Source: Gammaproteobacteria bacterium (GTDB taxonomy: Bacteria > Pseudomonadota > Gammaproteobacteria > JAADGQ01). Taken from it: 53,780 bases of DNA. The translations under genes were made by a program, and so were the position numbers. Below the pieces are notes generated by a model. That model saw only the letters and a list, made by a program, of their open reading frames with translations, ran no database searches and was not told the origin of the DNA. The stretch covers positions 1 through 53,780 of the forward strand of contig WFXF01000004.1 of NCBI GenBank assembly GCA_015490755.1. Reading direction: 5' to 3'. Within the stretch, counting starts at the first letter, position 1. The number at the start of each line of letters is the position of its first letter. Of the stretch, positions 9,466 through 12,780 are shown in pieces.

Positions 9466-9485
9466 TTAAGCCCGGCCGGGCTTAA
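9466..9485. terminator. perfect palindrome between convergent purC and mltD
   Basis: TTAAGCCCGG followed by CCGGGCTTAA forms a 20-base perfect palindrome containing the mltD stop codon. As RNA it would fold with an eight-base-pair stem and a GGCC loop. The minus-strand continuation is moderately T-rich (TGGTTGTTTGTT), so it may terminate mltD transcription and perhaps purC; there is no uninterrupted U-tract. Confidence 0.5.
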
Positions 9486-10872
9486 CCCAGACAACCACCT
9501 GTTGCCCAAGACGCAATATGCTTTTTCTGGAAAGTTTGTTCCAGTCTACAATCTTGTTCACACTCACATTATAGGCCTTAGCAAGGTCCCATAGTGTATC
9601 GCCCCGGCTCACTACGTGAACTACCTTCTGCCCAGATTCCTGAACACTTACTGGCACCATTAACATTTTTCCGGCACGGATTTTACTACTCTCAAGGCGA
9701 TTCACTTGACGTAACAGTGAAGCACTTATCTGATATTTTTGAGCAATGTGCCCCAAAGTTTCACCCGAACGAATTTTATGCTGCGCCCAGCGCACATGTT
9801 GCTCTTTTGGTATGGCCGCAAGCTTTTCTTTGAATTTTTCAATCTTATCAACCGGTAAAAGCAAATCATGCTCACCGCCCGGGTTTGTCGCCCATCGTTT
9901 AAAGGCCGGGTTTAAACGGCGAACCTGTTCAAGTGGAACGTTAGACAAGCTGGCCACTAGTGCAAGGTCAATTTGATCATCTATTTTCACTTCAGAAAAA
10001 TAGCGACTGTTTTCGATATCTATCAGCTTAATACCATAATGATCAGGGTCCGCAATAATTTGACTTAATGACAATAGCTTTGGAATATAATTTTTTGTCT
10101 CGACAGGTAAGTTTAGAGCCCAAAAGTTTTGCTCTTTTCCTTCTTGCTTATTTTTTCTCAATGCCTTACGAACATTACCTTGACCTGCATTGTAAGCGGC
10201 CAGAGCCAACAACCAATCACCATCAAAGGTCTTATGTAGTTTTTGAAGATAGCCCAAGGCTGCTTGTGTTGAAGCCTTCACATCACGCCGCTCGTCATAC
10301 CACCAGTTCATCTCCAAACCATAATGGCGTGCCGTTGCAGGCATAAACTGCCATAAGCCGGAAGCAGAAAGGTGAGAATGAGCCAAAGGTTGATAAGCAC
10401 TCTCAATTGCAGGAAGCAGAGCTATTTCAAGTGGCATGTTACGCTTTTCTATTTCATCAACAATATAATAGAGATAGGGCGCTGCCTGTTTTGCCAGTCG
10501 CTCCATATGAAGTGGTCGATCTGTAAACCACTTGATATTTTTTTGAACTTCAGGGTGCTCGTAATCCACCAAAGAGAATCCGGAACGCATACGTGACCAC
10601 AGACTTAATAGTGGAGCAACTGCGGGCTCATCAACCGTTATATTTATCTCTTTTGCAACCACTGGAGTATTATGATCACTGCATTGCTCTATTCCTGCAG
10701 GCCGTTCACTCGGCCATGGATAAACGCTTGATCCCGTTCTTGTTGGCGAGATAATGTCATCCACTGATTCATGCAGCAGATCAGAAGTTTCAAGAGAGGT
10801 CAGATAGTGCTGACTGCACCCCGTAATAGCGCCGAGAAAAATACCGCTGATTAAAACTTTTGAACGCAACAT
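9466..10872 (-). CDS. mltD: membrane-bound lytic murein transglycosylase D
   Basis: I place the start at 10872, giving MLRSKVLISGIFLGAITGC with an ITGC lipobox, so the mature protein is a lipoprotein; a longer frame to 10959 overlaps gloB and hides the signal. The catalytic SLT domain shows the Glu in ALLPAIESAYQP, then SASGLWQFMPATA and ALAAYNAGQGNV. Two LysM peptidoglycan-binding repeats close the protein (KIRSGETLGHIAQKY and VVSRGDTLWDLAKAY). The enzyme cleaves glycan strands to anhydromuropeptides in the periplasm. It follows gloB by 43 bases, a neighbour pair common in gammaproteobacteria. Confidence 0.92.
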   Translation of the reverse strand: MLRSKVLISGIFLGAITGCSQHYLTSLETSDLLHESVDDIISPTRTGSSVYPWPSERPAGIEQCSDHNTPVVAKEINITVDEPAVAPLLSLWSRMRSGFSLVDYEHPEVQKNIKWFTDRPLHMERLAKQAAPYLYYIVDEIEKRNMPLEIALLPAIESAYQPLAHSHLSASGLWQFMPATARHYGLEMNWWYDERRDVKASTQAALGYLQKLHKTFDGDWLLALAAYNAGQGNVRKALRKNKQEGKEQNFWALNLPVETKNYIPKLLSLSQIIADPDHYGIKLIDIENSRYFSEVKIDDQIDLALVASLSNVPLEQVRRLNPAFKRWATNPGGEHDLLLPVDKIEKFKEKLAAIPKEQHVRWAQHKIRSGETLGHIAQKYQISASLLRQVNRLESSKIRAGKMLMVPVSVQESGQKVVHVVSRGDTLWDLAKAYNVSVNKIVDWNKLSRKSILRLGQQVVVWVKPGRA

Positions 10873-10915
10873 AGCGTAAGCACTCCGTACTGCTGATACT
10901 ATTATTAAAAGCATA

Positions 10916-11680
10916 TTATTGCGTATCTTTCCAAAACCGGAGCACCATAAAGACCTCATTGTCTGTACTCAAACGCTTACCGGCGAAAGCTTCTGCAGCG
11001 GCAACAACTTCTGGAATATGACAGCGTAAAAAAGGATTTGTCGCTTTCTCCAAAAGCAAGGTTGAAGGTACCGTAGGCTTACCTTCAATCTGAACCCTAT
11101 ATGCACTCTTCAATCTACTTTGAATAGCGGCATTATACGGCTCAATTTTTGCGGCAAAGTTCAAATTTTTAAGAGTGTATTCATGAGAGCAATAGATAAG
11201 GGTTGAATCAGGTAGTGTGGCTATTTTTTGAAGTGAAGAGTAAAGCTGCTCCGGTGTGCTATTAAATATTCGTCCGCATCCAGCACCAAACAAGGTATCG
11301 CCACAAAATACCTCGCCATCTCCATAATAAGTAATATGACCCGCCGTATGCCCTGGAGTATCAAGCACTTTAAAAGGGCGCTCGACACCAGAGATATTTA
11401 TAACATCACCTTCGATAACCGGATGGCTCAACCCTGGAATATGTTCAATAGTTGAGCCATAAACCGGGATATCATACAACGCCAACAAATCTGAAATACC
11501 ATCGATATGATCATGGCAGCCATGTGTAATAAATATTGCAACAGGTATTAGAGAGAGTCTGTTTAATTTGTCAATAACCGGCTCTGCTTCTCCAGGATCA
11601 ACAACAATAACTCTGGAGCTGTATTTCTCACTACGAATCAACCAAATATAGTTATCTGAAAACTGGGCATATAACTGCAT
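10916..11680 (-). CDS. gloB: hydroxyacylglutathione hydrolase (glyoxalase II) with altered metal motif
   Basis: This 254-residue metallo-beta-lactamase-fold enzyme hydrolyses S-lactoylglutathione in methylglyoxal detoxification. The usual T-H-x-H-x-D-H motif reads T52 H53 G54 C55 H56 D57 H58: the second metal-1 histidine is a cysteine (codon 11518-11516, TGC). The remaining ligands are present: H111 in DTPGHTAGH, D128 in FCGDTLFGAGCGR and H166 in CSHEYTL. The C-terminal GloB domain is complete. Cys can bind zinc, so activity may survive with altered metal use; H56 could also shift into the role. It sits between a DUF3426 gene and mltD. Confidence 0.9.
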   Translation of the reverse strand: MQLYAQFSDNYIWLIRSEKYSSRVIVVDPGEAEPVIDKLNRLSLIPVAIFITHGCHDHIDGISDLLALYDIPVYGSTIEHIPGLSHPVIEGDVINISGVERPFKVLDTPGHTAGHITYYGDGEVFCGDTLFGAGCGRIFNSTPEQLYSSLQKIATLPDSTLIYCSHEYTLKNLNFAAKIEPYNAAIQSRLKSAYRVQIEGKPTVPSTLLLEKATNPFLRCHIPEVVAAAEAFAGKRLSTDNEVFMVLRFWKDTQ

Positions 11681-11700: not shown

Positions 11701-12780
11701 CTATAAAAAATTAAATTCAAAGTTTACTGCATCCCTGCCTGGATCTACAATTTCCAAAAGCACCTGAGCAGAAACTTTAGGTGATATTCCCGCTTCAATT
11801 GACTCTTTATTCACCAGATATTCATAGGGGTAAAATTGACGGCTCACAACAACCTGCTGCTCAATATCAGAAAGTACAAGTTCCAGGATAGGGTAGGGTT
11901 GAATAAAAGGGGCATTATTAATATAAGTAGCACTGACAACCAGTGCATTCTTTACATTTGTGTGTCCTTGCACACTTTTATGCAGCAACTGAATTTGATC
12001 AACAGATTTTTTCAGCGGGATGCTGCACCCTAATACCGAACACATCGTTTCCAGCGGCGCTCTCAAGCCATCGTGTTCAGCCAATTGATTGCGCGCAGCA
12101 TAAACATACTGAAAAGCAAGAAGAGCAATCATGACAACAATTGCAACACTCCAGCCCAGAGTATTCGATCCGGACTCCCTTGATACAAACTCATCTGCAT
12201 CATCTTCCAGTTTATCCAGCAAAGATTCTGAAATTTCCAGTTTTTCAATACTATCTTTTTTTTCGGGTTTTATATCATTATTTTCTATAACTTCTGGTGT
12301 GGGCGAATTTTTCAGCAGAGAAAAAGCACCCTCAATCAAAGGGGGTGGTGTATCAGTGATGTTCTCCTGGCTTTTTACTTCCAATGCTGGAGCTTTATTT
12401 AATATTTCACACTCTTCGTTGATCACTGTCTCAAGATCAATATCACCTTTTTCACCGTTGATACTTTCATCATTGGCACCCCACTGGCTATCATTTTGAA
12501 CAGAAATATCAACCCATTCAGGCTCGTTAGTTTCAGTTGATGCAATTAATTCATCACTCAAATCATGGCTAATCAAAGGAGGTGCTTTTTTATTTAATTG
12601 TGGAACATTATTACCCACATCGACATTCGACACAGCATCACCAACTTGTTCATCATGCAAAGTTTCAAGCGCATTGAACTCTTTTTTACACCGGCCACAA
12701 TTAACTACACCCAATGCTACTTTTAGCTGGGAAATATCTATTTCAAAACGAGATTCACAGTGCTGACATTGCGTAAACAT
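11701..12780 (-). CDS. zinc-ribbon and DUF3426 membrane protein
   Basis: A 359-residue protein in three parts. Residues 1-38 form an MJ0042-type zinc ribbon (CQHC near 6 and CGRC near 28). A long acidic low-complexity linker rich in Glu, Asp, Ser and Asn follows. A single membrane helix lies around residue 210 (WSVAIVVMIALLAFQYVY), and the C-terminal DUF3426 domain would be on the far side of the inner membrane. The family has no established function; some members sit near prmA or fis, here it is upstream of gloB. It begins 64 bases downstream of ntrC. Confidence 0.85.
   Translation of the reverse strand: MFTQCQHCESRFEIDISQLKVALGVVNCGRCKKEFNALETLHDEQVGDAVSNVDVGNNVPQLNKKAPPLISHDLSDELIASTETNEPEWVDISVQNDSQWGANDESINGEKGDIDLETVINEECEILNKAPALEVKSQENITDTPPPLIEGAFSLLKNSPTPEVIENNDIKPEKKDSIEKLEISESLLDKLEDDADEFVSRESGSNTLGWSVAIVVMIALLAFQYVYAARNQLAEHDGLRAPLETMCSVLGCSIPLKKSVDQIQLLHKSVQGHTNVKNALVVSATYINNAPFIQPYPILELVLSDIEQQVVVSRQFYPYEYLVNKESIEAGISPKVSAQVLLEIVDPGRDAVNFEFNFL

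Follow-up and report, generated by a model that had tools for sequence, protein, structure and literature searches.

The window analyzed here, a 53,780-nucleotide stretch of gammaproteobacterial DNA, carries on its minus strand (10916..11680) a gloB gene for a 254-residue hydroxyacylglutathione hydrolase (glyoxalase II) variant, in whose metal-binding motif a cysteine stands at the place of a ligand histidine. Is this a lapse in a single protein, or a change of the metal site that recurs in the family and is maintained there? In the MBL superfamily, the catalytic metal ligands are regarded as almost invariant, and an excerpt of PMC7785958 describes the habitual ligands as His and Asp only; repeated replacement of a Zn1 ligand departs from that. 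In the open-access literature, we found no published account of a Cys residue at position 55 of GloB or of a coupling between positions 55 and 139.

Identity of the protein and of the replaced ligand

The window protein belongs to the GloB family, with a score of 289.6 bits against the NCBIfam equivalog model TIGR03413 (cut-off, 200.8). Its Pfam domains are Lactamase_B and, after the MBL domain, HAGH_C (PF16123; 83.3 bits, cut-off 25). The AlphaFold2 model (pLDDT 96.1, pTM 0.91) was matched by Foldseek to solved glyoxalase II structures with TM scores of 0.95 (8ewo_A), 0.94 (6rz0), and 0.92 (1qh3_A). The fold is common to the canonical enzymes of Pseudomonas aeruginosa (8ewo), Escherichia coli (6rz0), and human (1qh3/1qh5), as are the C-terminal glutathione-binding domain, six of the seven metal ligands, and R137, Y168, R248, and K251, the equivalents of human Lys143, Tyr175, Arg249, and Lys252. 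In contrast, a Cys residue replaces the second His of the motif.

The motif-bearing stretch of the translated open reading frame, AIFITHGCHDHIDGIS, contains THGCHDH at residues 52 to 58 (T52 to H58; 11507..11527, minus strand), and the complete THxHxDH motif of canonical dinuclear glyoxalase II is absent from the protein. The initial annotation had pointed to a Cys at the second motif His and to six remaining ligands in place. Both statements hold, as codon 55 is TGC (11516..11518, minus strand), and H53, D57, H58, H111, D128, and H166 are all found and invariant in a 64-row alignment. In the alignment with human glyoxalase II, C55 corresponds to the ligand His56, H56 to Trp57, and F139 to Tyr145. 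A section of the review PMC9686547 gives His54, His56, and His110 as the ligands of Zn1 and Asp58, His59, His173, and Asp134 as those of Zn2; by that account, the substitution strikes a Zn1 ligand. The accompanying proposal that H56 is a ligand shifted by one residue did not stand: H56 aligns with the nonligand human Trp57, at the variable "x" of the motif, and His is also found at 56 in 16 of 158 relatives that have His55. The other suggestions of that annotation were that the site may bind a different metal or be redox-sensitive.

The window genome is 99.67% complete, in 94 contigs, and encodes one GloB. A second MBL protein in this genome has a canonical THGHLDH motif (L002 1165-1794). The within-order comparison comprises two relatives. 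The GloB protein of a genus-mate is 72% identical to that of the window and has the motif THGHHDH, with codon 55 being CAT, and that of a family-mate has THHHADH.

Distribution and constraint of Cys55

A first survey, mostly class-wide, yielded 123 distinct GloB sequences among the matches listed, with His at position 55 in 115, Cys in 6, Asp in 1, and Gln in 1; two of the six C55 sequences came via a search with a C55-containing peptide. There were at least 150 matches and, among the matches listed, all were read except an incomplete one of genome G309. The set was then enlarged to 184 distinct sequences, 194 before removal of duplicates and contained sequences, with 158 H55, 23 C55, 2 D55, and 1 Q55. 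These counts describe an enriched, nonrandom sample, as the searches deliberately included the families of genomes G073 and G363, along with one C55-containing peptide. Three genomes of family f3 were left out (G403, whose gene is split over contigs, G429, and G431), and two distant sequences (L036 and L044) were excluded before the 182-row tree was built and covariation was counted.

Genus g73 (family f72) contributes nine of the 23 C55 sequences, which are all of its full GloB proteins; no full GloB was obtained from its tenth genome, G202. Another 11 belong to family f3 and two to genus g145, and the last is that of the window. The f3 sequences with C55 and H139 are mostly from genus g4 and include two from Piscirickettsiaceae/Methylophagaceae metagenome-assembled genomes (MAGs). 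The possibility raised at the outset that the motif is common in the clade was thus borne out only in part: the two nearest relatives have His, and Cys55 is fixed in one genus of another family and frequent in a third family. A scan of 369 class genomes with a degenerate DNA pattern identified a C55 GloB in four of them, the remaining 10 of the 14 matches being in frames judged on reading to be non-MBL. The same scan of 398 phylum genomes gave eight matches, with a GloB only in the window's own genome.

The best trees put C55 in four separate lineages. However, approximately unbiased (AU) tests rejected neither the joining of g73 with f3 (P = 0.137) nor that of the window with g73 (P = 0.106), so that four independent gains are not proven and the number of events could be lower.

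All 23 C55 sequences keep the six other ligands as well as R137, Y168, R248, and K251. The median dN/dS was 0.11 for C55-C55 pairs (n = 8) versus 0.13 for H55-H55 pairs (n = 13, leaving out one further control pair with a dS of 0.04). The low ratio between C55 sequences, similar to that of their H55 counterparts, indicates that the C55 enzymes are under purifying selection.

Three other observations concern position 55. One H55 sequence (L183, from genome G395) is nested among C55 sequences, and its residues 55, 60, 139, and 142 are all of the H55 type; this state results from either reversion or recombination. A GloB sequence from a Nitrosomonadales MAG (L035) has Gln at the ligand position (THWQKDH) together with an ordinary F139. 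Lastly, Asp replaces His55 in two sequences (L102 from G363 and L196 from G405), each with Arg139, and both genomes are without glyoxalase I over the cut-off.

Covariation of positions 55 and 139

In a column-by-column comparison of C55 and H55 rows, the strongest difference after position 55 itself was found at position 139. Among 222 rows, the 196 with H55 have Phe (148), Leu (44), Thr (3), or Ser (1) at 139, whereas the 23 with C55 have His (20), Lys (2), or Phe (1). Both D55 rows have Arg, and the single Q55 row has Phe. The last 40 rows were fetched after the pattern had been seen; all of them are H55 with F139 or L139, and they fit the pattern, with no new non-His case among them. The only C55 row with F139 is that of the window, whose codon 139 (11264..11266, minus strand, counted from the start of the open reading frame at 11680) encodes the H55-type residue rather than His, Lys, or Arg. 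The H55 sequence nested among C55 sequences, L183, also has F139.

Parsimony on the 182-row tree gave eight changes at position 55 and six changes between neutral and cationic residues at 139. Each of these six coincides with a change at 55 on the same branch, a result not matched in any of 20,000 random placements. In an 89-row tree built with the trait columns masked, 10 changes were needed at position 55. When only strongly supported branches were considered, five independent pairs remained, in which residue 139 changed in the same way in 3.6 on average and in the opposite way in none; a sign test gave P = 0.125, five pairs being too few for the test to reach 0.05. A simple charge rule, by which a potentially anionic residue at 55 goes with a cationic residue at 139 and the neutral Q55 with F139, fits 25 of the 26 non-His rows, the window being the exception. 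That the neutral Q55 leaves F139 in place agrees with this rule.

Two positions close to the motif also differ between the groups. Asp60 is present in 19 of 23 C55 rows versus 19 of 158 H55 rows. In the window, codon 60 (11501..11503, minus strand) encodes Asp and is Gly in the genus-mate, and C55-D60 changes with H55-G60 within each of two sister pairs, window/L003 and L179/L183. Nevertheless, we rejected D60 as a partner of C55, because only 2 of 16 changes at position 60 coincide with changes at 55, a score reached by 1,769 of 20,000 random placements. His54 is found in 1 of 23 C55 rows versus 134 of 158 H55 rows; with 3 of 21 changes coinciding, a score reached by 515 of 20,000 random placements, a partnership of residue 54 with C55 is suggestive only.

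The window protein shares C55 with the C55/H139 proteins of g73 and f3, which also usually have D60 and seldom His54. In contrast, theirs combine H139 with a changed loop at 140 to 142, whereas the window protein keeps F139. We take residues 137 to 139 of GloB to correspond to Arg163 to Asp165 of human ETHE1, through a shared CGR motif. An excerpt of PMC4383860 says that these ETHE1 residues line the substrate channel. Together with its alignment to the substrate-contacting Tyr145 of the human enzyme, this places position 139 at the border of the active site. We infer that residues 55 and 139 may be in direct contact.

Interpretation of the Zn1 site

We give roughly even odds to an explanation in which the window GloB is an active glyoxalase II variant that uses the Cys55 thiolate as a Zn1 ligand and represents a half-made two-residue switch. 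It would be a normally folded, orthologous GloB with its Zn1-site His55 replaced by Cys, and it would retain glutathione-thioester hydrolase activity with two metals. Zn1 would be held by the C55 thiolate instead of an imidazole, together with H53, H111, and D128, the bridging ligand, and the Zn2 site (D57, H58, D128, and H166) would be unchanged. An anionic ligand at position 55, Cys or Asp, is expected to make the Zn1 site more negative. In the other swapped lineages (C55/H139, C55/K139, and D55/R139), this charge may be balanced by the cation at 139, the place of the substrate-contacting Tyr145 in the human enzyme. The switch is predicted to have two states, one with His at 55 and an uncharged residue at 139, and the other with Cys or Asp at 55 and a cation at 139 (His, Lys, or Arg). 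With C55 and F139, the window protein is read as a half-switched form; lacking the balancing cation, it may have a weaker hold on Zn1 or a slower turnover. Somewhat short of an even chance, in our estimate from these comparisons, is the broader proposal that the two-residue switch constitutes an alternative natural architecture of the Zn1 site, one that can be both gained and reversed and of which the window would have the first half only. The swap at position 55 belongs to a recurrent, selectively maintained ligand change that is accompanied by a second residue, and the window is its atypical case. Points against this explanation are the window protein itself, which breaks the charge rule, the missing glyoxalase I hit in its genome, and the small number of independent pairs on well-supported branches.

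A cysteine ligand in the catalytic site of an MBL-fold enzyme, predicted here, is also found in the B1/B2 metallo-beta-lactamases, whose Cys221 is reported in part of PMC7785958 to aid zinc binding at limiting metal. However, their Cys belongs to motif 4 and is located at Zn2, whereas that of the window is in motif 2, at Zn1. A ligand swap tied to one other residue would represent a natural experiment on stepwise metal-site change in a dinuclear hydrolase, with natural enzymes at each step, i.e., H55/F139 (the genus-mate), C55/F139 (the window), C55/H139, C55/K139, and D55/R139.

Lys or Arg at 139 could not readily serve as a ligand, and there may be no Zn1 at all. In the most serious alternative, which we regard as possible but clearly less probable, the C55 and D55 proteins have lost Zn1 and are mononuclear, with Zn2 only or with a 2-His-1-Asp iron as in ETHE1, and the cation at 139 forms a salt bridge in the empty site. 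The partners found at 139, His, Lys, and Arg, are indeed cations rather than good ligands. According to an excerpt of PMC4383860, the persulfide dioxygenase ETHE1, which shares the MBL fold, has a single iron on His79, His135, and Asp154, and its His81, the human equivalent of residue 55, is present yet not bound to metal. Similarly, the first motif position is not His in the B2 beta-lactamases (NxHxDR, in the part of PMC7785958 concerned). ETHE1 differs from the window GloB in being a mononuclear iron enzyme, and the window GloB gave no ETHE1 family match and has HAGH_C. Loss of Zn1 is at odds with the nature of the replacement, as Cys is a good zinc ligand, not an inert residue, and is present in 23 of the 26 non-His rows, and with the invariance of H53, H111, and D128. 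Moreover, the window GloB has no cation at 139 to fill the site.

The second alternative concerns the window lineage only and involves glyoxalase I. No match to glyoxalase I (TIGR00068) was found in the 99.67% complete window genome, and the usual substrate of GloB may therefore not be made there. The C55 substitution could then be slightly damaging drift after the main pathway had gone, an explanation that we consider unlikely. The window is the sole C55 row with an ordinary residue at 139, and the second MBL protein of the genome, with its canonical motif, is also consistent with drift. Nevertheless, the genus-mate, in whose genome TIGR00068 likewise gave no match, keeps GloB and its His55. 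The whole-gene dN/dS between the two gloB genes is approximately 0.12 (0.189/1.59), and the end branches of the two proteins in the tree are equal (0.20 and 0.21). Every other active-site residue is intact in the window GloB, and three other genomes (G369, G370, and G073) carry both glyoxalase I and a C55 GloB.

Glyoxalase I was detected over the cut-off in 10 of the 23 C55 genomes, and one further genome (G385) has a glyoxalase I fragment of 83.5 bits. Neither of the two D55 genomes has a hit over the cut-off, whereas 15 of 21 H55 genomes from the same two families do. Thus, C55 GloB works beside the full pathway in those 10 genomes. A rule by which C55 marks the loss of glyoxalase I is not supported, given those 10 genomes and the H55 genus-mate without a match to the enzyme. 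The share being lower among C55 genomes, there may be a weak link between C55 and the absence of glyoxalase I.

Lastly, a sequencing or assembly error at codon 55, envisaged in the initial annotation, is extremely improbable, as TGC differs from the genus-mate's CAT at three bases with the frame intact and a further 22 distinct sequences, all from independent assemblies, also have Cys55.

The genomic neighbors of the window gene are those of a housekeeping gloB, like those of the C55/H139 genes of g73 and f3. An SLT/LysM protein (mltD) adjoins gloB in the window, in the genus-mate, and in G073, and the C55 gloB genes of G073 and L033 lie beside a methyltransferase gene and rnhA; the names of the last two genes and of mltD in G073 come from our own reading of the translations. 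In the window, the open reading frame of the lytic transglycosylase (9466-10959, minus strand) taken from its first ATG shares 44 bases with the 3′ end of gloB, and by comparison with the genus-mate, its start is probably some 29 codons further in. Directly upstream of gloB (11701-12780, minus strand) lies a gene for a protein with a zinc ribbon and DUF3426, and a similar open reading frame is adjacent to gloB in the genus-mate.
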